A stretch of DNA of 64,000 nt from Ignavibacteria bacterium (lineage in GTDB: Bacteria > Bacteroidota > Ignavibacteria > Tepidaquicellales > Tepidaquicellaceae): assembly GCA_019694675.1 (NCBI GenBank), contig JAIBBK010000004.1, positions 1 through 64,000 on the forward strand, given 5' to 3'. The position numbers and the translations under genes are program-made. Below the pieces are notes generated by a model. It did not search any database. It was not told the origin of the DNA and saw only the letters and a list, made by a program, of their open reading frames with translations. Below are positions 17,866 to 28,063 of the stretch, one piece after another. Every line of letters begins with the position of its first letter. Position 1 is the stretch's first letter.

Positions 17866-20800
17866 ATGAAACCATTCTTTCTGATTCTTTCCTCAGCATT
17901 GCTTCTCTCCTTCACGTTTTCCGATAATAACAATGAGCAAGAGGTCATAAACAACCACAACAACATAATCTCTCCGGAACTGAAATGTCCGTCTCCCCCG
18001 TCATTTGTTCAGTCAATTGAAAATGACAAGGTAAAACAGACCGCCGGAATTTCCGGCAACGACATTGACCGGGGCTGGTATCAGAAAGCAATGGAGCAGA
18101 TCGAAAAGGAAGAATACAATATTTCCTATGATGAAAAGCTCGGAGCCTATCAGTCACCTAACAGAGTTAACAATATTCGTTTCATTTATCATAAGGACGG
18201 ATTCACGGCAAAGACACGTGATAACAGGGTCCCGCTTTTTAATTTGAATGATAAGACGATAGAGGAGAAAGATAAAAAATATGAGACGATTGACGAGTGG
18301 AGCATTAAGTTGAAAGTGGAAAATGGAGAGTTGAAAGTGGAAAGTGAAAAGCTTCAGGCAGCAGGAAATAAAGCATGGATTGAGAATGACATGATGAGAA
18401 TTGATTACACAAACACAAAAGACGGCATGCGGCAGGACTTCATTGTAAAACAAAAGCCCGCAGGCGAAGGAAAGCTCAGATTGAATTTTTCCGCAGAGAC
18501 AAAGCTAAAGATGATAGTCGGCGCTGATGCATTGATGTTCAGGAATGATAAAGGCGAGGAGAAGATGAAATACTCCGCGCTGAAAGTGTGGGACGCAAAC
18601 GGAAAGGAACTCAGGGCATACTTCGAGAAGAACAATCACGAATTAGGAATTGAGAATTACGAATTAAGAACAAATTCAAAGGTCAAAGATCCAAAATCTG
18701 AAATCAAAACAAATCCTGATTCCTTCTGCATCGTTGTCAACGATGAAGATGCCGTCTATCCGATCACCATCGATCCGTTATCCACAAGTCCAAACTGGAC
18801 TGCGGAAAGCAATCAGGCAAATGCACTGTTCGGTTCCAGCGTATCCACAGCCGGCGATGTGAACGGAGATGGTTATTCCGATGTGATAATTGGAGCGAAT
18901 GGATTTGACAACGGACAGACAGATGAAGGAAGAGCTTTCGTTTATAATGGGTCTGCCTCGGGACTTTCGCCGACAGCAAACTGGACTGCCGAAAGCGATC
19001 AGGCAAATGCACGGTTCGGTTCCAGCGTATCCACAGCCGGTGACGTGAACGGAGACGGATATTCCGATGTGATAGTTGGATTGTATGCATTTGACAACGG
19101 ACAGACAGATGAAGGCAGGGCTTATGTTTACCACGGCTCGGCCTCGGGACTTGGGCCGGCACCAAACTGGGTAGCAGAAGGCAATCAGGCGAGTGCAAGT
19201 TTCGGATTCAGCGTTTCAACAGCAGGTGATGTCAACGGAGACGGATATTCCGATGTGATAGTTGGAGCGTATGCATTTGACAACGGACAGACAGATGAAG
19301 GCAGGGCTTATGTTTACCACGGCTCGGCCTCCGGACTTTCGGCGACTGCAAGCTGGACGGCAGAAAGCAATCAGGGAAGTGCATTTTTCGGTTATAGCGT
19401 CTCCACAGCCGGCGATGTGAACGGGGACGGATTTTCCGATGTGATAGTTGGAGCGTATGTGTTTGACAACGGACAGACAGATGAAGGAAGGGCTTTTGTT
19501 TACCACGGCTCGGCCGCGGGACTTGCGCCGACAGCAAACTGGACGGCAGAGAGCGATCAGCCGGGTGCACAATTCGGCAATAGCGTTTCAACAGCCGGCG
19601 ATGTGAACGGAGACGGATATTCCGATGTGATAGTTGGAGCATGGAAATTTACCAACTATGAAGGAAAAGCTTTCGTTTATCACGGGTCTGCCTCGGGACT
19701 TGCAACATCAGCAAACTGGACTGCGGAAAGCAATCAGGCAAATGTACGGTTCGGTTCCAGCGTATCCACCGCAGGTGACGTGAACGGAGACGGATATTCC
19801 GATGTGATTGTGGGATCAGATTGGTTTGACAACGTACAACCAGACGAAGGAAGGGCTTATGTTTACCACGGTTCGGCCTCGGGACTTGCGCCGGCAGCAA
19901 ACTGGACAGTGGAAAGCGATCAGCTAGGTGCGCAATTCGGCAACAGCGTCTCAATAGCCGGCGATGTGAACGGAGACGGATATTCCGATGTGATTGTGGG
20001 AGCATTTTTGTTTGACAACGGGCAGCTAGACGAAGGCCGAGCTTTTGTTTACCACGGCTCGGCCGCGGGACTTGCAGCGACTGCAAGCTGGACTGCGGAA
20101 AGCGATCAGCAGAGTGCATATTTTGGCTATAGCGTATCCGCAGCCGGCGATGTGAACGGCGATGGTTATGCCGATGTGATAATTGGAGCGAATGGATTTG
20201 ACAACGGACAGACAGATGAAGGAAGAGCTTTCGTTTATCATGGGTCTGCTTCGGGACTTGCGCCGACAGCAAACTGGTCTGTGGAAAGCGATCAGGCAAA
20301 TGCACGGTTCGGTACCAGCGTCTCCACAGCCGGTGACGTGAACGGAGACGGATATTCCGATGTGATAGTTGGAGCGTATGTATTTGACAACGGACAGACA
20401 GATGAAGGAAGAGCTTTCGTTTATCACGGCTCGGCCTCGGGACTTTCAGCAACTGCAAACTGGACTGCCGAAAGTGATCAGGCAAATGCACATTTCGGCA
20501 TCAGCGTATCCACCGCAGGTGACGTGAACGGAGACGGATATTCCGATGTGATCGTCGGAGCTCCTTCCGGCGCACGGTTTAATGAGGGTGAAGCATTCGT
20601 TTATCATGGTTCTGCTTCGGGATTGTCGGCAAACAAATGCTGGATTGATTATGGAGGAGGTCCAAACAGATCATTCGGCAACAGCGTTTCAACAGCCGGT
20701 GATGTGAATGGAGACGGATATTCCGATGTGATAGTTGGAGCGTGGGCACTTACGAACGGACAGGCAAATGAAGGAAAAGCTTTCGTTTATCACGGGTCTG

Positions 20801-22338
20801 GCTCGGGACTTGCGATGACAGCAAACTGGACGGCGGAAAGCAATCAGGCAGGTGCACGGTTCGGTTCAAGCCTGTCCACAGCCGGTGACGTGAACGGAGA
20901 CGGATATTCCGATGTGATTGTGGGAGCAGATTGGTATGACAACGGGCAGTCAGATGAAGGCAGAGCTTTTGTTTACCACGGCTCGGCCTCGGGACTTGCG
21001 CCGGCAGCAAACTGGACGGCGGAAAGCGATCAGATAGGGGCATCTTTCGGCTGGAGCGTCTCCGCAGCCGGCGATGTGAACGGAGACGGATATTCCGATG
21101 TGATTGTTGGAGCGTATGCATTTGACAACGGACAGACAGACGAAGGAAGGGCTTATGTTTACCATGGCTCGGCCTCAGGACTTTCGGCGACTGCAAGCTG
21201 GACGGCAGAAAGCGATCAGGGAAGTACATATTTCGGTTATAGCGTCTCCACAGCCGGCGATGTGAACGGGGACGGATTTTCCGATGTGATCGTGGGTGCA
21301 CCTTTCTATCAAAACGGACAAACACAAGAAGGCAGGGCGTTTGTATATTACGGAAACGGAGGAACAGGATTAAGATCAACGGTTCAGCAATACAAACCCG
21401 GAACAACCAACATAATATCATCCGGTGGATTATCCGGAACAGATGGTCAGGCAAGACTGAATCTTTTCGGAAGAAGTAATTTTGGCAGAGCTGATGGAAA
21501 AATCGTTTATGAATACAAAGACAACGGATTACCTTTCAGCGGAGCAATCATTACAAACAGCACCTTATCTTCGGGTTCAGGGATAATTACCGATCTCGGC
21601 ACTTCCCCGGCAGGAGTTCAGCTGAACAATGATATATCCGGACTGCTTACGAACAAGGTGTATAAATGGAGAGCAAGGGTCCAGTACAGTCTTGTGAATA
21701 ATCCCTATCAGAAATTCGGCCCGTGGAAGTATTTTGCAAACTATGTACCTCTTCCTTCCGGAAGCATAAGAGCGAAAACAGTTCCGCCTTCTGTTTTCAC
21801 CCTTTCATTCAAAGGATTGATACAGGGATTTTATAATTCTGCAACCAATTCAATGATAGGAGATACAGTGCAGATCACTTTGTATAAGTATTCCTTTCCT
21901 GATCCGCCGGTGGGAACCGCTAAAGCTTTGTTGGATTCAACAGGAAGCGGAACTTTCAGCTTTACCGGCATTATCAATAATACGCTATATCATATTAAGG
22001 TGAATCACAGAAACTCAATTGAAACCTGGAGCAACGCAACACAGGTGTTTACAAATTCTTCCATGGTCTATGACTTCACCACGGCAAGTGCAAAGGCATA
22101 CGGAAACAACATGATGCAGGTTGATGCATCACCGGTGAGATTTGCATTTTACGGCGGTGATGTGAATCAGGACGGAACGGTTGACGCAACTGATGTGAGT
22201 TTGGTTGACAATGACGCAGCAAACTACGAGAGCGGGTATGTTGTCACTGATCTCACCGGCGACAACTACGTTGACGGAACTGACTTTGCAATAGCCGATA
22301 ATAATGCTGCGAATTTTGTTTCAGCGATCTGGCCGTGA
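17866..22338 (+). CDS. Large secreted FG-GAP repeat protein with dockerin-like tail
   Basis: 1490 residues. The signal peptide is residues 1-19 (FFLILSSALLLSFTFS). An N-domain (20-305) carries two in-frame low-complexity insertions (about 148-164 and 258-284). Residues ~310-1165 hold exactly 14 FG-GAP/integrin-alpha-type units of ~62 residues, each with NWTAES(D/N)Q, FG-SVSTAGDVNGDGYSDVI and GRAFVYHGSASGL; the DVNGDGYSD loop is a Ca2+-binding motif. Fourteen units fit two seven-bladed propellers. A ~250-residue linker precedes a C-terminal pair of dockerin-like Ca2+ loops (GDVNQDGTVDATD and DLTGDNYVDGTD). There is no T9SS sorting domain, so its route across the outer membrane is open. A decayed paralog lies just upstream. 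Probable role in surface adhesion or a complex, by inference. Confidence 0.9.
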   Translation: MKPFFLILSSALLLSFTFSDNNNEQEVINNHNNIISPELKCPSPPSFVQSIENDKVKQTAGISGNDIDRGWYQKAMEQIEKEEYNISYDEKLGAYQSPNRVNNIRFIYHKDGFTAKTRDNRVPLFNLNDKTIEEKDKKYETIDEWSIKLKVENGELKVESEKLQAAGNKAWIENDMMRIDYTNTKDGMRQDFIVKQKPAGEGKLRLNFSAETKLKMIVGADALMFRNDKGEEKMKYSALKVWDANGKELRAYFEKNNHELGIENYELRTNSKVKDPKSEIKTNPDSFCIVVNDEDAVYPITIDPLSTSPNWTAESNQANALFGSSVSTAGDVNGDGYSDVIIGANGFDNGQTDEGRAFVYNGSASGLSPTANWTAESDQANARFGSSVSTAGDVNGDGYSDVIVGLYAFDNGQTDEGRAYVYHGSASGLGPAPNWVAEGNQASASFGFSVSTAGDVNGDGYSDVIVGAYAFDNGQTDEGRAYVYHGSASGLSATASWTAESNQGSAFFGYSVSTAGDVNGDGFSDVIVGAYVFDNGQTDEGRAFVYHGSAAGLAPTANWTAESDQPGAQFGNSVSTAGDVNGDGYSDVIVGAWKFTNYEGKAFVYHGSASGLATSANWTAESNQANVRFGSSVSTAGDVNGDGYSDVIVGSDWFDNVQPDEGRAYVYHGSASGLAPAANWTVESDQLGAQFGNSVSIAGDVNGDGYSDVIVGAFLFDNGQLDEGRAFVYHGSAAGLAATASWTAESDQQSAYFGYSVSAAGDVNGDGYADVIIGANGFDNGQTDEGRAFVYHGSASGLAPTANWSVESDQANARFGTSVSTAGDVNGDGYSDVIVGAYVFDNGQTDEGRAFVYHGSASGLSATANWTAESDQANAHFGISVSTAGDVNGDGYSDVIVGAPSGARFNEGEAFVYHGSASGLSANKCWIDYGGGPNRSFGNSVSTAGDVNGDGYSDVIVGAWALTNGQANEGKAFVYHGSGSGLAMTANWTAESNQAGARFGSSLSTAGDVNGDGYSDVIVGADWYDNGQSDEGRAFVYHGSASGLAPAANWTAESDQIGASFGWSVSAAGDVNGDGYSDVIVGAYAFDNGQTDEGRAYVYHGSASGLSATASWTAESDQGSTYFGYSVSTAGDVNGDGFSDVIVGAPFYQNGQTQEGRAFVYYGNGGTGLRSTVQQYKPGTTNIISSGGLSGTDGQARLNLFGRSNFGRADGKIVYEYKDNGLPFSGAIITNSTLSSGSGIITDLGTSPAGVQLNNDISGLLTNKVYKWRARVQYSLVNNPYQKFGPWKYFANYVPLPSGSIRAKTVPPSVFTLSFKGLIQGFYNSATNSMIGDTVQITLYKYSFPDPPVGTAKALLDSTGSGTFSFTGIINNTLYHIKVNHRNSIETWSNATQVFTNSSMVYDFTTASAKAYGNNMMQVDASPVRFAFYGGDVNQDGTVDATDVSLVDNDAANYESGYVVTDLTGDNYVDGTDFAIADNNAANFVSAIWP
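18301..18360 (+). repeat. In-frame dispersed repeat (VENGELKVES type)
   Basis: The bases encode a self-repeating stretch KLKVENGELKVESEKL inside the FG-GAP protein gene. The DNA repeats itself (gttgaaagtgga ... gttgaaagtgga). It is unlike the surrounding protein and looks like a dispersed element inserted in frame. Confidence 0.55.
18640..18720 (+). repeat. In-frame dispersed repeat (NYELR type)
   Basis: The DNA (aattaggaattgagaattac and onward) encodes LGIENYELRT followed by KVKDPKSEIKTNPD. Similar AATT-rich sequence occurs at 45625-45705 (between genes) and 45883-45920 (inside another gene, encoding NYELRIANL). It is unlike the flanking coding sequence. Confidence 0.6.
18793..21357 (+). 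repeat. 14-copy ~186-bp coding repeat array (FG-GAP)
   Basis: Fourteen units with a period of about 186 bp, slightly shorter in the few variant units. The segment encoding AGDVNGDGYSDVIVGA is nearly invariant at DNA level. Unit 11 is the most divergent (CWIDYGGGPNRSFG). The high DNA identity between units makes the array prone to copy-number change and to assembly error. Confidence 0.9.
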
Positions 22339-22610: not shown

Positions 22611-23181
22611 TCCCAAAACCTCTGATCAATAGAATGAAAATTATCCGCATTCAAGTCTGTCAGTTTTGAGGCCCGGAGAGTTTTGAATTCAAAAGCTAAG
22701 AAAAATGTCTACCTTAACTCTGCAGGAAAAGGGGGGCTTACATATAAATCAGTATTTACAGATTTGAGCTGTGAACATTTGCGGTTACTATTTTGTACTT
22801 ATGTTCTTACCCACCCCCTGCCCCCGCCTGATGTGTTACAGACAAAAAGTCTTGTGTGAATGCCTGGTTATCTTCGTTTAAGTTACAGAAGAGTATTTTA
22901 GCTGTCTGTATCATTTCTGCATCGGTAGATACGTATGGTCCTTTTATTTCAGCTCATTTCATTTTTTGATTAATCTTAGTTTATGAAATTAGATCATTAT
23001 CAGAGGAGCAAATCCATTTTTCAGACCACTCTTCATTAAAATCTTCATAGGTTTTGCAATCCCTACCGGGAAAACTCTGGATTTGGAATAAGTCACAGCA
23101 TTTTTGGAATCTAGTTTGTTTTTGGAGCATTTTCATACAAATTTGTTCTAGACCCTCAAAAATTCGCTGGAATCATCATTT
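22611..23181. other. Intergenic region before the 21-bp array
   Basis: No gene-like frame in either direction. The sequence is mixed, with AT-rich parts around 22880-23000. No tRNA or IS remnant is recognised. Confidence 0.4.
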
Positions 23182-23485
23182 TAGCAGAGCGTCCGAACTC
23201 TTTAGCAGAGCGTCCGAACTCTTTAGCAGAGCGTCCGAACTCTTTTGCTGGACGTCCGAACTCTTTTGCTGAGCGTCCGAACTCTTTTGCTGGACGTCCG
23301 AACTCTTTTGCTGAGCGTCCGAACTCTTTTGCAGGACGTCCGAACTCTTTTGCTGAGCGTCCGGACTCTTTTGCTGGACGTCCGAACTCTTTTGCTGAGC
23401 GTCCGAACTCTTTTGCTGGACGTCCGAACTCTTTTGCTGAGCGTCCGAACTCCTTTGCTAGTTGTCCGAACTCTTTTGCCGGGTG
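23182..23485. repeat. 14-copy 21-bp tandem repeat array
   Basis: Fourteen units at an exact 21-bp period; the core GTCCGAACTC starts at 23191, 23212, 23233 and so on to 23464. From the third unit the sequence before the core alternates strictly between GAGC and GGAC up to unit 13, giving a 42-bp higher-order unit. In the GGAC units it forms the palindrome GGACGTCC. The unit is a multiple of three, so frames stay open on both strands (minus: AKEFGRS/AKEFGRP heptads; plus: VRTLL heptads). There is no signal peptide, no ribosome site and no recognisable flanking protein, so I treat it as noncoding. There are no spacers, so it is not CRISPR. Confidence 0.9.
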
Positions 23486-24454
23486 CATAATGTTCATTTG
23501 CAGTGCGTTTTTAAACATTTATCATTCACGGCGGAACTCAAGCAAAGTCAGAGGCCCTTGATTTTGCCAGATCCCGCCGGCTTTCGAAGTTTCCGGGGAA
23601 GCCGGGCGCTTCAATCAGAACCAAAGTACAGAAAAGGCCGTATTCAACCGGTTCCCGGCAAGTTCATCAATGGCTTTTTCCCGGCAATCCGTGCGACAAA
23701 TAAACGATTCACCGCAATTTAAAAGAAATGATTTTCCGTTCCAAAGTTAAGTTTTTCACTTTGTGAATGCAGAAGGGGGTGGATCTATTTGACTAAACTA
23801 TTTTAGATTAACTTAGTGTAGAAGGTAATCCAGAAATGATTTCTTGTCCTGACACCTCTGCGACCCTCATTCAAGATCTGCCGGCCTCAGCACTGCTCCG
23901 TTCCCACTCCCCGCAGGTGATCAGGGGGTGGGTTTCACCACTGTCGCTGTTGTGCCCAGATATTGGCGGTGCAAGCTGATTGATAAATTATATCAGGCAG
24001 AGGTCAATTTTCATTGAGCGTCAAATCCGATTTGCGATCATCGTGAAAAGAGAAGTAATCATGTATAAAGTCCTGTTGAAAAACATACTGCGAGCTATCG
24101 AAAAAGGGTAACTACCCCGCCCGGTCTTTTGACGAATGGCGCCAGCACTAGAGCGCGAGGTGAAAATATTTTATGGATATCCAGAGTACGGACTATTTAA
24201 GATTTATTTCAGCAAAATAGATTAGTCAAAGTACTCCGAATGAAGTTCAATTGAATTTCATTTTTCATATTTTGATGTGAAGTAAATTCACTTAAATAGT
24301 TGAATTGAGAAGTAATATTTATGTGATTGTCTGTTGAAGATCAATAGATGCGATTCTTACTAACATGTGATCATCCAGCTAGATTCATTCAAAATCCAAT
24401 GGTTTGGTTGGAACACAATCTTGAAGTTATTCTAATTTTTAAATATTCGTAAAC
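23486..24454. other. Long intergenic region upstream of the restriction island
   Basis: About 970 bp with no supported gene. The first ~500 bp is GC-moderate and broken by stops; from ~24160 on it becomes clearly AT-rich, like the following nuclease gene, so the left border of the transferred island may lie near here. No integrase or direct repeat was found. Confidence 0.4.
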
Positions 24455-25207
24455 ATGTCAAAAAAATCTGAGATAAGAAAACTTGCACTTGAACTTCTTG
24501 AACAAATCCCTGATGGAATTCGCTATTCTCAATTAGTAAAAATGATCCAATTAAATGACCACCGTTTCAAGAAAAACACAATTAGTGGGGCAATTTGGAA
24601 TTTGGATGAAGTCAGTGCGGAATTCGTTTATAAGCCTGATAGGGGTTTATTCAAACTCATAAAATATGGTGACGAATACGAAGAAATTGACACCAAAATA
24701 AAATTAAATCCAAATGATAAGAGCACGACAAAGCAAATCAAAGAAGAAGATTTTTATAAGAGTTTTGCCGATTGGCTTGAAAAGGAAATCGAGGAGTGCA
24801 CAAAGGCAATACCATTAGGGGGCAAAGTATTCAACGACAAATGGGGAACCCCGGATGTGATTGGAGTAAGAGAGTCAAAAAGGGGCGACATAGTCCAGTT
24901 TCCAACGGAAATTGTTTCTGCAGAAATAAAAACTGATTCTGCTGGTCTCATAACTGCTTTTGGTCAAGCATGCGCTTACAAAATTTTTTCACACAAGTCA
25001 TATATAGTTATCCCTTCAAGTTCTATTAGTGACGATATCACACGACTAGATGCTTTGAGCAGGCTCTTTGGGATAGGGTTAGTATTGTTTGATTCGAAGA
25101 ATGTTGATGAACCGAACTTTGAAATTCGAGCTAGAGCCCTTAAACACGAGCCGGATATGTTTTTTGTAAATAAGAATCTGAAAGTAATATCAGATAAGCT
25201 GTTTTGA
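24455..25207 (+). CDS. HrgA-like protein: winged helix plus PD-(D/E)XK nuclease-like domain
   Basis: 250 residues, ATG. The N-terminal ~75 residues look like a winged-helix domain (IRYSQLVKMI ... ISGAIWNLDEV ... KPDRGLFKLIK). The C-terminal part has the PD-(D/E)XK arrangement: Asp134 in WGTPDVIG, then Glu157-x-Lys159 in SAEIKT, followed by FGQACAYKIFSHKSYIVIP, where a Gln/Tyr follows the core as in many restriction nucleases. It resembles HrgA/COG2958 proteins found beside restriction-modification genes. The gene is AT-rich compared with its neighbours, which suggests transfer. It ends in TGATG, overlapping a small ORF that leads into the MmeI-like gene. Confidence 0.65.
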   Translation: MSKKSEIRKLALELLEQIPDGIRYSQLVKMIQLNDHRFKKNTISGAIWNLDEVSAEFVYKPDRGLFKLIKYGDEYEEIDTKIKLNPNDKSTTKQIKEEDFYKSFADWLEKEIEECTKAIPLGGKVFNDKWGTPDVIGVRESKRGDIVQFPTEIVSAEIKTDSAGLITAFGQACAYKIFSHKSYIVIPSSSISDDITRLDALSRLFGIGLVLFDSKNVDEPNFEIRARALKHEPDMFFVNKNLKVISDKLF

Positions 25208-25335
25208 TGACCGAATTGAGGGACGGACATGAGTGTTGTGAAGTAATTAATAGTGTTACTAATATTGATGAATTGATAAACTTCTTAGGGAAAAAATGTT
25301 ATGAGCGAATTAAAGATTTCGATTATGCCCCTTAG
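25207..25335 (+). CDS. Possible 42-residue coupled ORF
   Basis: The ATG overlaps the stop of the nuclease-like gene (TGATG). The 42-codon frame (MTELRDGHECC ... DFDYAP) overlaps the first codons of the MmeI-like gene. It has balanced composition but no recognisable family. It could be a coupling peptide that carries ribosomes from one gene to the next, the stub of a former gene, or chance. Confidence 0.3.
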   Translation: MTELRDGHECCEVINSVTNIDELINFLGKKCYERIKDFDYAP

Positions 25336-28063
25336 CTGGAACGAAATAAAAGACCGAGCATTAAAATTTTCCAAAGAATGGGAAGATGCATCAAATGAAG
25401 ATGCAGATGCAAAGCCGTTCCTTGTCGAGTTCTTCAATGTGTTCGGAATCAGCAGCCGCAAGGTGGCTACGTTCGAACACCGCATTAAAAAACTCAATGA
25501 GCAGGACGGATACATTGACATGCTTTGGAAGGGCATGATGCTTGTTGAAATGAAAAGCCGGGGCAAGAATCTCGATAAGGCGTATGAGCAGGCAAGGGAA
25601 TATCTCCACGGGCTAAAGGAGCACGAATTGCCAAAGTTTATAATAGTTTCGGACTTTGAAAATTTCAGACTGTATGATTTGGAGGAAGACACGATGACGC
25701 ATTTCAAACTCGATGAACTCGTTGATAATGTTCAGCATTTCGGATTTATCTCCGGCTATCAAAAGAAAGTTTACAAAGAGCAGGACCCGGCAAACATCAA
25801 GGCAGCCGAACTCATGGGCAAGCTGCATGACCGGCTTAAGGATATTGGCTACACCGGGCATCCGCTTGAAGTGTATCTCGTAAGACTTCTGTTCTGCCTC
25901 TTTGCAGATGACACTACCATATTCAACAAACAGCAGTTTCAGGACTTCATTGAACAGCGAACTATTGAGGATGGCTCTGATCTTGCCGCGAAACTTCATG
26001 AGCTTTTTCAGGTACTCAATACACCCAAAGACGAGAGGTTCACAAATCTTGATGAACAGCTTGCAGAATTTCCTTACGTGAACGGAAAGCTCTTTGAAGA
26101 GCAATTGCCAATGGCAAGCTTTGATGCGAAGATGAGGCAAGCCCTGCTTGATTGCTGTTCAATTGACTGGGCAAGAATTTCGCCTGCAATATTCGGTTCG
26201 ATGTTTCAGAGTGTGATGAATCCTGTTGAGCGGCGCAATCTCGGAGCTCACTATACAAGCGAGAAGAACATACTCAAAGTCATCAAGCCGCTGTTCCTTG
26301 ATGAACTTTGGAAAGAGTTCGCTACAATCAAAGACAATCCAAACAAGCTTCGCGATTTCCATTCTAAAATGAGCAAGCTCAGGTTTCTCGATCCTGCATG
26401 CGGATGCGGGAATTTTCTCGTTATCGCTTACAGAGAACTTCGCATGCTTGAGCTGGAGATTCTCAGAAACCTGAACAAGTCCGGACAGGGCGCTCTTGAT
26501 GTCGGCGACATCATCAAGCTTGATGTTGATATGATGTACGGAATTGAGATAGAAGAATTTCCCGCCCGCATTGCCGAAGTTGCAATGTGGCTGATAGACC
26601 ATCAGATGAACATGCAGGTGAGCAACGAGTTCGGCCAGTATTTTACTAGGCTGCCGTTGAGGAAGTCGGCGAAAATTGTGAACGGCAATGCGCTGAGGTT
26701 GGATTGGGAAGAAGTTGTTTTGAAAGACGATTTGAATTTCATTCTGGGAAATCCCCCTTTTGCTGGAAAGCAGGTTCAAAGTCCAAGCCAAAAGGAAGAT
26801 ATGAATTTAGTTTTTCGGGGATTAAAAAATACTGGTATACTTGACTATGTGACTGCATGGTACTTGAAGGCTACAGTCCTATCTCAGGATTCCAAAATCC
26901 AAATCGGCTTTGTTTCCACAAATTCAATAACTCAAGGTGAACAAGTTGGCATATTATGGCACTTAGTTATGAAAAAATTTGAGATGAAAATCAACTTTGC
27001 ACATCAAACTTTTAAATGGGGTAATGAAGCAAAGGGCAATGCTGCAGTTCATGTTGTGATAATAGGTTTCGCACACTTTGATACCAACCATAGATCTTTA
27101 TATGTCTATGAAAATATAAGCGCGGAACCAGTTCTCACGTCTGCAAAAAACATCAATCCATATTTGGTAGATGCAAACAATGTTTTCATCTTTGCAAGAA
27201 CAAAGCCATTATGCGATGTTCCTGAGATCATTAAAGGCAGTGAAACAACTGACGATGGTCATTTTATTCTCACATTAGAAGAGGTTTCAAATTTGACCCA
27301 AAAAAATGAGAATGCCAAAAAATTTATAAGACCTTTCATTGGTGGCGGTGATTTTATTAACAATAGAGTTAGATATTGTTTGTGGCTCAAAGACATGAAG
27401 TCAGATGAACTACGAGACATTCCGGAAATACTGGAACGTATTGAACGTGTAAGAAGATTTCGATTGTCAAGTTCTAAGGAGAGAACTAGAAGTTGGGCAA
27501 ACTTTCCGACATTATTCACTGAAGACCGGCAGCCAAGTTCACGCTTTTTGATGTTTCCAAAAGTATCATCAGAGAAGCGAACATACATACCCTTTGCTTT
27601 TGTAGAGCCCGTGTTCATCATTAATAATACTGCTTCGTTCATTCCAGATGCTTCACATTTCACATTCGGAGTACTTCAAAGCAAAATGCATATGACTTGG
27701 ACTAAGTATGTTTGTGGCAGACTCGAGAGCAGATTCATATATTCAAACAAAATCGTTTACAACAACTTCCCCTGGCCGGAGCAGCCCACAGAGAAGCAAG
27801 TGCAGGCAATAGAGCAAGCGGCGCAGGGAGTATTAGATGCGCGGGCTGAGTTTCCAAACAGTTCGCTTGCAGATTTGTATGATCCTCTCACCATGCCGCC
27901 AAAGCTTCTAAAGGCGCATCAGACATTGGACAAGGCAGTTGACCTTGCATACCGTCCTCAGCCGTTCACATCAGATGCAAAACGGATGGAGTATTTGTTT
28001 GAGTTGTATGAGAAATATACGGCGGGGTTGTTTGGGGGCAGCGGCAAGAAAAAAAAGAAATAG
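25301..28063 (+). CDS. MmeI-family type IIL restriction-methylation enzyme
   Basis: 920 residues in one chain. The N-terminal nuclease domain has Asp73-x9-Glu83-x-Lys85 (YIDMLWKGMMLVEMKSRGKN), the same spacing as the catalytic D-x9-E-x-K of MmeI. A helical spacer follows (about 150-330), then a gamma-type adenine methyltransferase with motif I LDPACGCGNF (363-372), GIEIEEFPARIAEVAMW, and motif IV NPPF (484-487). The target-recognition part (about 600-830) ends in SNKIVYNNFPWPE. Family knowledge: such enzymes bind an asymmetric site, methylate one strand for protection and cut ~20 nt away. Start alternatives are this ATG or the ATG at 25325 (MPLSWNE). Residues ~485-825 are encoded by visibly more AT-rich DNA than the ends. 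Confidence 0.9.
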   Translation: MSELKISIMPLSWNEIKDRALKFSKEWEDASNEDADAKPFLVEFFNVFGISSRKVATFEHRIKKLNEQDGYIDMLWKGMMLVEMKSRGKNLDKAYEQAREYLHGLKEHELPKFIIVSDFENFRLYDLEEDTMTHFKLDELVDNVQHFGFISGYQKKVYKEQDPANIKAAELMGKLHDRLKDIGYTGHPLEVYLVRLLFCLFADDTTIFNKQQFQDFIEQRTIEDGSDLAAKLHELFQVLNTPKDERFTNLDEQLAEFPYVNGKLFEEQLPMASFDAKMRQALLDCCSIDWARISPAIFGSMFQSVMNPVERRNLGAHYTSEKNILKVIKPLFLDELWKEFATIKDNPNKLRDFHSKMSKLRFLDPACGCGNFLVIAYRELRMLELEILRNLNKSGQGALDVGDIIKLDVDMMYGIEIEEFPARIAEVAMWLIDHQMNMQVSNEFGQYFTRLPLRKSAKIVNGNALRLDWEEVVLKDDLNFILGNPPFAGKQVQSPSQKEDMNLVFRGLKNTGILDYVTAWYLKATVLSQDSKIQIGFVSTNSITQGEQVGILWHLVMKKFEMKINFAHQTFKWGNEAKGNAAVHVVIIGFAHFDTNHRSLYVYENISAEPVLTSAKNINPYLVDANNVFIFARTKPLCDVPEIIKGSETTDDGHFILTLEEVSNLTQKNENAKKFIRPFIGGGDFINNRVRYCLWLKDMKSDELRDIPEILERIERVRRFRLSSSKERTRSWANFPTLFTEDRQPSSRFLMFPKVSSEKRTYIPFAFVEPVFIINNTASFIPDASHFTFGVLQSKMHMTWTKYVCGRLESRFIYSNKIVYNNFPWPEQPTEKQVQAIEQAAQGVLDARAEFPNSSLADLYDPLTMPPKLLKAHQTLDKAVDLAYRPQPFTSDAKRMEYLFELYEKYTAGLFGGSGKKKKK

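Follow-up and report, generated by a model that had tools for sequence, protein, structure and literature searches.

The window, a 64,000-nucleotide stretch of an Ignavibacteria bacterium contig (C17 of the source genome G000, whose assembly comprises 3.70 Mb in 104 contigs), carries a tandem array of 21-bp units between a gene for a large FG-GAP repeat protein and an MmeI-type restriction-modification gene (Table 1). TRF described the array at period 21 (14.3 copies, 88% match, 0% indels, score 444) and also at period 42 (7.1 copies, 94% match, score 502). Alignment of the units one by one resolved positions 23180-23473 into 14 units, each agreeing with the consensus at 16/21 positions or more, followed by a 15th at 11/21. 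Units 1-3 are of the GAGC type (TTTAGCAGAGCGTCCGAACTC), units 3-13 alternate strictly between a GGAC and a GAGC type (TTTTGCTGGACGTCCGAACTC and TTTTGCTGAGCGTCCGAACTC), unit 14 is divergent (AGTT), and the palindrome GGACGTCC is located in units 4, 6, 8, 10 and 12. TRF and the unit table thus bore out the first-pass annotation, which had described 14 units with an exact 21-bp period, two alternating types in units 3-13 and a palindrome on alternate copies beside restriction genes. The alternating types make up a higher-order repeat of 42 bp within the array. The units abut one another, and the unique spacers between identical repeats that define a CRISPR array are absent from the unit table. 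Elsewhere in the window, Pfam identified a Por_Secre_tail domain, which suggests a Bacteroidota-like phylum with a T9SS, and a 250-aa protein with no Pfam family, possibly a member of the restriction island, is encoded at 24455-25207, just 5' of the MmeI-type gene.

Table 1 Positions of the array, its flanks and the adjoining features in the window
Feature	Position	Strand	Basis
Array of 14 tandem 21-bp units, with a 42-bp higher-order repeat across units 3-13	23180..23479	- (sense relative to gene X)	TRF, unit table, sister arrays
Gene X-side edge of array, common to C27 and C100 arrays	23159..23179	-	Unit table
Far-side (5') flank of array, 90% identical to C100	23477..23917	-	DNA alignment
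Mechanical ORF through array, 120 aa, AKEFGRS/AKEFGRP heptads, judged no gene	23156..23518	-	No open-frame excess, no codon-position signal in class
Decayed gene X N-terminal remnant, 45 aa, 53% identity to C100 gene, 1 TGA and 1 TAA	22852..22986	-	tblastn, DNA alignment with C100
MmeI-type restriction-modification protein, neighbour, not assigned to locus	25301..28063	+	Pfam PF20473, PF20466, PF20464, PF20467, PF20465
FG-GAP repeat protein, 1490 aa, neighbour, not assigned to locus	17866..22338	+	Pfam PF01839

The 21-mer family of the window array has further members in the source genome, on contigs C10 (15 copies, with partial alternation of GAAC and GGCC types), C27 (12.7 copies, at a contig end) and C100 (10.3 copies), and small fragments on C56 and C34. 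A sequence search found no copy in 98 other relatives, nor in the phage or plasmid collections. The search for the 21-mer in relatives, which the first-pass annotation had called for, was productive within the source genome, where one sister array lies 5' of a gene, and empty in all 98 other genomes. This gene, hereafter gene X, is a minus-strand gene of 251 aa (C100:25292-26044) whose start lies ~215 bp beyond the C100 array, so that the minus strand reads, in order, conserved flank, array and gene X. On the far side of the window array, 440 bp are 90% identical to C100, which indicates that the locus was duplicated. The same arrangement recurs in the window, where the place of the gene is taken by a 45-aa remnant of the gene X start holding two stops; tblastn of gene X placed the match at 22855-22965 (57% over 37 aa, E 5e-7). 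To judge from these alignments, the window array is an orphan copy of a duplicated locus whose gene X has decayed, and it may lack a present function.

Contigs C17 and C27 also carry an identical second 21-mer, CTCTATAGCAGATCGTCCTTG, at their ends (C17:143302-143343, L217 and L218; C27:37236-37277, L219 and L220), from which the two contigs probably join within one assembly-breaking array. Other intergenic tandem repeats of the source genome have units of 47, 55, 69, 92-95 and 114 bp (L178, L179, L174, L181), and some of these have inverted-repeat units, e.g. CGTTCCCAATCGGGAGATTGGGAACG.

Three overlapping genome samples were searched for gene X. Homologues were found in 7/99 genomes, the source genome included, by protein search with the C100 gene; in 23/395 sampled genomes of the phylum with a 14-protein profile (A1); and, by protein search, in 34/149 relatives of genome G243, with 32 of these belonging to a single genus. 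Nearly all homologues from the 99-genome search were preceded, as shown by TRF, by 21-bp arrays of unrelated sequence. Most arrays lie no more than 500 bp 5' of the gene X start codon (median 214 nt from array end to start, IQR 140-370) and range from ~2 to 27 copies; TRF arrays were found at 43/65 gene X ORFs, and arrays of at least five units at 63/85 loci examined.

The association was measured by a self-match test that takes the best 42-bp self-match among lags 8-69. The discovery set was drawn from 65 distinct gene X ORFs; 59 had 500 bp or more of 5' sequence and were kept, and six with less were left out. Five of the 59 (L190, L195, L200, L204 and L244) were supplied by a search for arrays or overlap with its results. 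The best lag was 21, 42 or 63 at 45/59 gene X loci compared to 83/640 other ORFs of the same genomes; this control rate of 13%, which exceeds the 3/62 expectation probably because of the 3-periodicity of coding DNA, is the null to use. A best-lag score of at least 0.74 was reached at 39/59 gene X loci and by 20/640 control genes; several of these 20 either have an array in common with a gene X or, on inspection by eye, look like divergent relatives of the gene X protein. Mean self-identity over the 600-bp stretch preceding gene X was 0.297, 0.414 and 0.295 at lags 20, 21 and 22, respectively. The test set was assembled from a protein search around G243 (28 loci, L370-L397), none of them found through arrays; L393 was dropped as it had no 5' sequence. 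Among the remaining 27 loci, which are mostly from one genus and so not fully independent, the best lag was 21, 42 or 63 on 25 of the 5' sides and on 4 of the 3' sides. Many of these arrays are degenerate, with units 61-75% alike, yet the 21-bp spacing held over 8-10 units. A 42-bp higher order is common, lag 42 being the best at 12/59 discovery and 3/27 test loci. Exceptions were the 14/59 discovery and 2/27 test loci with another best lag, the arrays 3' of gene X at L244 and L316, and the L304 array, which lies 2.3 kb 5' of gene X with another gene between. In general, then, 21-bp spaced arrays accompany gene X. While the array by itself fits known satellites, its link to one gene family is new; a literature search found no report of a pairing of gene X with 21-bp arrays.

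We asked whether the arrays could be translated, on the gene X strand, into a heptad-repeat peptide (AKEFGRS in the window). The period is a multiple of three, a minus-strand frame is open in the C17, C27 and C100 arrays with similar ends, and three of the four most variable columns in the source genome's own arrays are third codon positions, a pattern whose chance was estimated at ~0.26. As the first-pass annotation had noted, one plus- and one minus-strand frame are stop-free across the window array; this is uninformative, since a random tandem 21-mer leaves any given frame open in ~71% of cases ((61/64)^7). The C10 array contains in-frame stops. Across the 43 TRF arrays, 0, 1, 2 or 3 frames were stop-free in 7, 12, 18 and 6 arrays in the sense direction and in 6, 13, 17 and 7 in the antisense direction; the two strands are alike, and seven arrays have no open sense frame. 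Period-3 variability was detected in 0/63 arrays of at least five units at p<0.05, and the codon rhythm (7 cycles per unit) had a power of 0.080, reached by 4837/5000 permutations. Repeats within long ORFs served as period-3 controls, imperfect because one lacks the signal (L203, 0.030), which was strong in the other two (L202, 0.639; L192, 0.219). The coding hypothesis was rejected on the open-frame counts and the absent period-3 signal: arrays of the gene X class are noncoding, in keeping with the earlier remark that nothing supports translation, and a translated array is very improbable.

The unit-variability spectrum was then read at other frequencies in the same 63 arrays, with column permutations as the null. 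Variability power peaks at 2 cycles per unit, or 10.5 bp (0.200 compared to a flat expectation of 0.100; 0/5000 permutations). The peak was present in the 41 discovery arrays (0.188) and the 22 test arrays (0.221; 0/3000 permutations each), as well as in 45 non-redundant units (0.181, 0/3000). One turn of B-DNA is 10.5 bp, and the combination of this rhythm with the absent codon rhythm gives substance to the proposal that 21 bp matters as two helical turns. Degenerate arrays typically retain two conserved blocks per unit (e.g. TTCAC and CTTAGAA in L387, CCGATGG and CCGGAAG in L396). The first-pass annotation had gone on to suggest an array of protein-binding sites. This stands as the best reading. 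The phasing claim rests on the class; taken singly, the four arrays of the source genome do not show the 2-cycle peak.

An array transcribed in the gene X 5' leader could instead act as RNA, as a type III toxin-antitoxin-like repeat or in leader control. Type III systems (ToxIN and kin) have repeats of ~35-47 nt. Like them, gene X-class arrays lie directly 5' of one gene, at the median 214 nt from its start codon; they differ in their 21-bp repeat, in a gene X product that is mostly acidic and helical with a variable C-terminus, and in lacking an RNA structure signal. No folding signal was obtained from 32 consensus units (z sense -0.10, antisense -0.07, in a pseudoknot-free fold), no Rfam family other than tRNA was found in 8 loci, and the sense strand of the one array-gene X interval scanned was free of terminator-like sites. 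As to a ToxN/CptN/TenpN-type endoRNase, gene X has no Pfam family and the fold search is compatible with either answer. The 10.5-bp rhythm is a B-DNA signature and, with the acidity of gene X, also argues against an RNA role, which we consider unlikely.

We next compared the units themselves. Three loci of different genera, with gene X 59-72% identical, keep GGCGGAACGnnTTAACTnnnn while the surrounding DNA hardly aligns, and unit similarity correlated with gene X similarity over 35 loci (Mantel r 0.31, 0/5000 permutations). In other gene X pairs the proteins are 57-69% identical and the units unrelated, indicating that units turn over fast. As judged from these alignments, units can be alike between close gene X homologues at times and different between distant ones. 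No universal unit motif was found (information 7.03, compared to 6.09 +- 0.15 for letter-shuffled units and 6.88 +- 0.16 for random strand choice). A scan of all species genomes for the 21-bp pattern was set aside: among the matches listed, most were heptanucleotide AGTCCGA repeats, chance matches or coding DNA. The AGTCCGA repeats (L038-L154), which match because 21 is 3 x 7, occur in many phyla, including Acidobacteria, Elusimicrobia, Pedobacter, Deltaproteobacteria and others. The same search gave a perfect 21-bp array, TTGATGAATCGGTCCGAACTC (6.4 copies, 100% match), in Lederbergia sp. NSJ-179 (L128:901-1034), just 3' of what reads by eye as a Dps-like gene and with no gene X seen there; it has the 10-base core GTCCGAACTC in common with the window repeat.

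Arrays of constant unit length invite comparison with bacterial satellites, of which an earlier survey by Subirana and Messeguer reportedly described 22/44-nt examples. The gene X arrays are similar to the 20-22-nt class in their constant ~21-bp length with little sequence conservation between loci, in being noncoding, and in the occurrence of one sequence family with several members (C10, C17, C27 and C100) in one genome and 0/98 other relatives. In Bacillus, the excerpted accounts describe noncoding 20-21-nt satellites of constant length and species-specific sequence, with several families per genome and a short conserved core, point out that the unit spans two helical turns, and offer protein binding or small RNA as possible roles (Subirana & Messeguer 2021; PMC8161180, PMC6749651). 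According to the same excerpted text, constant 20-22-nt bacterial satellites have no accepted function, and a partner gene goes unmentioned there (PMC8161180), whereas the arrays described here lie 5' of gene X and carry the 10.5-bp conservation rhythm. A selfish or neutral satellite, in which a 21-bp duplication recurs at a tolerant site 5' of gene X and is homogenised without function, would be consistent with units that differ from locus to locus, with the wide range in copy number and with the other intergenic tandem repeats (47-114 bp) of the source genome. Against it, degenerate arrays retain the 21-bp spacing across 8-10 units, and neither the 10.5-bp rhythm nor a core shared by different genera would be expected of neutral DNA; we regard a functionless satellite as quite unlikely.

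The gene X protein of C100 has no Pfam family, and no DNA-binding domain was found in gene X. The proteins are acidic in 12/14 members (pI 4.5-5.3), which argues against gene X as the DNA binder and for another protein or indirect binding. An AlphaFold2 model of the G015 protein (pLDDT 89, pTM 0.54) predicted helical bundles at residues 13-108 and 114-213 followed by a C-terminal beta sandwich. The C-terminus varies between members, being a beta sandwich, FN3-like repeats (by eye) or, in the source genome, a proline-rich tail. Foldseek of the G015 model in the PDB gave nothing at E<=0.001. By VIA-align the beta sandwich resembled jelly-roll/cupin-like folds (best Z 9.9), and the helices matched LemA (2etd) at Z 9.3, within the range of common bundles. 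Ten matches at E<=0.001 in a viral structure library were uninformative, PHROGs gave weak tail-protein matches for 2/14 gene X proteins, and PADLOC gave no convincing match.

Ten of the 14 gene X proteins also had weak profile matches to NCBIfam NF052641, the 'PQLLE family protein', several of them spanning most of the 211-aa model, with a best score of 41.1 bits compared to the curated cut-off of 80 bits. Gene X proteins score at most 41 bits and so fall outside the family as defined; on these profile scores, PQLLE is a remote relative. Two over-cutoff PQLLE members, at G177:C12 (L293) and G330:C32 (L325), have 21/42-bp arrays 5' of the gene, as gene X does; no paper under the PQLLE name was found in the literature search. 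At one locus of G048, contig C2 (L356:6056-7861), an ORF lies between a 21-bp array and gene X and has a first dozen residues that are gene X-like and a different remainder, as if the array and gene X start had captured another gene. Arrays of 21/42 bp also stand beside helical-looking proteins of 204, 235 and 243 aa at L232:7618-8598, L255:1152-2234 and L199:1492-2524, which are beyond the reach of the gene X profile; these may be divergent members of the family or may form a second partner family.

Iterons and single-protein partition sites, such as pSK1-Par-like loci, typically have direct repeats that span about two helical turns and lie 5' of a gene. The gene X arrays have the same architecture and might accordingly form a centromere-like or origin-like set of sites with gene X as the binder. 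The nine gene X proteins checked against Pfam had no Rep initiator, ParA/ParB or HTH domain. Several paralogues with differing units occur per genome (five matches in G048), and one gene X searched in viral contigs, plasmids and phages had no relative there. An origin or partition role is highly improbable on this evidence. The analysis, which covered one genome per species, likewise gave no evidence for the nucleoid or phase-variation roles raised in the first-pass annotation.

For a defence-island hypothesis, neighbours of gene X were scanned with PADLOC (93 neighbours and 93 control ORFs, each from a list of 104). Array-spanning ORFs and three others were dropped from the neighbours; some long ORFs, one array ORF and the list end were dropped from the controls. 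The scan gave 129 families for gene X neighbours compared to 82 for random ORFs; these are counts of families rather than of loci, many of which hit a single protein, and so no measure of enrichment over the controls. The neighbour families include AbiLi (3 members), AriA, GajA and Cas9. Gene X loci at L351:4988-6981, L355:9329-10405, L365:9048-10826 and L368:2733-7446 adjoin defence-type genes, namely a restriction enzyme paired with a methylase (as judged by eye), ATPases, and Cas9 with Cas1. The closeness of the window array to restriction genes may be nothing special.

We favour, with a little more confidence than doubt, the interpretation that an array of the window type makes up one half of a locus, acting in cis, with gene X as the other half, and is a candidate array of helically phased DNA sites. 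Along one face of B-DNA, each 21-bp unit would expose a pair of short contact blocks, and a protein would bind many units side by side. Such binding might control gene X, with array copy number tuning its expression, or might load the gene X product, an acidic protein with two predicted helical bundles and an exchangeable C-terminus. Judged by where the array lies, regulating gene X is its likeliest role; site-specific loading of the gene X product is the bolder proposal. In the window, the array would be a duplicated orphan whose gene X decayed, and the two-type alternation would stem from a 42-bp duplication unit.

More broadly, and more tentatively, the loci may represent a hitherto undescribed two-part system of the source phylum, in which a fast-evolving, phased 21-bp array is combined with a modular two-bundle protein bearing jelly-roll-like, FN3-like or proline-rich C-termini. 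Each gene X paralogue would keep its own array sequence, so that array and locus would form self-specific pairs, and the system could explain at least part of the 20-22-nt satellites. If the pairing is a true one, the system would be widespread, given that gene X occurs in 23 of the 395 genomes sampled from the phylum and 34 of 149 relatives of G243. Linking constant-length satellites to one gene family and to a DNA-face signature would turn their role into an experimentally tractable question.
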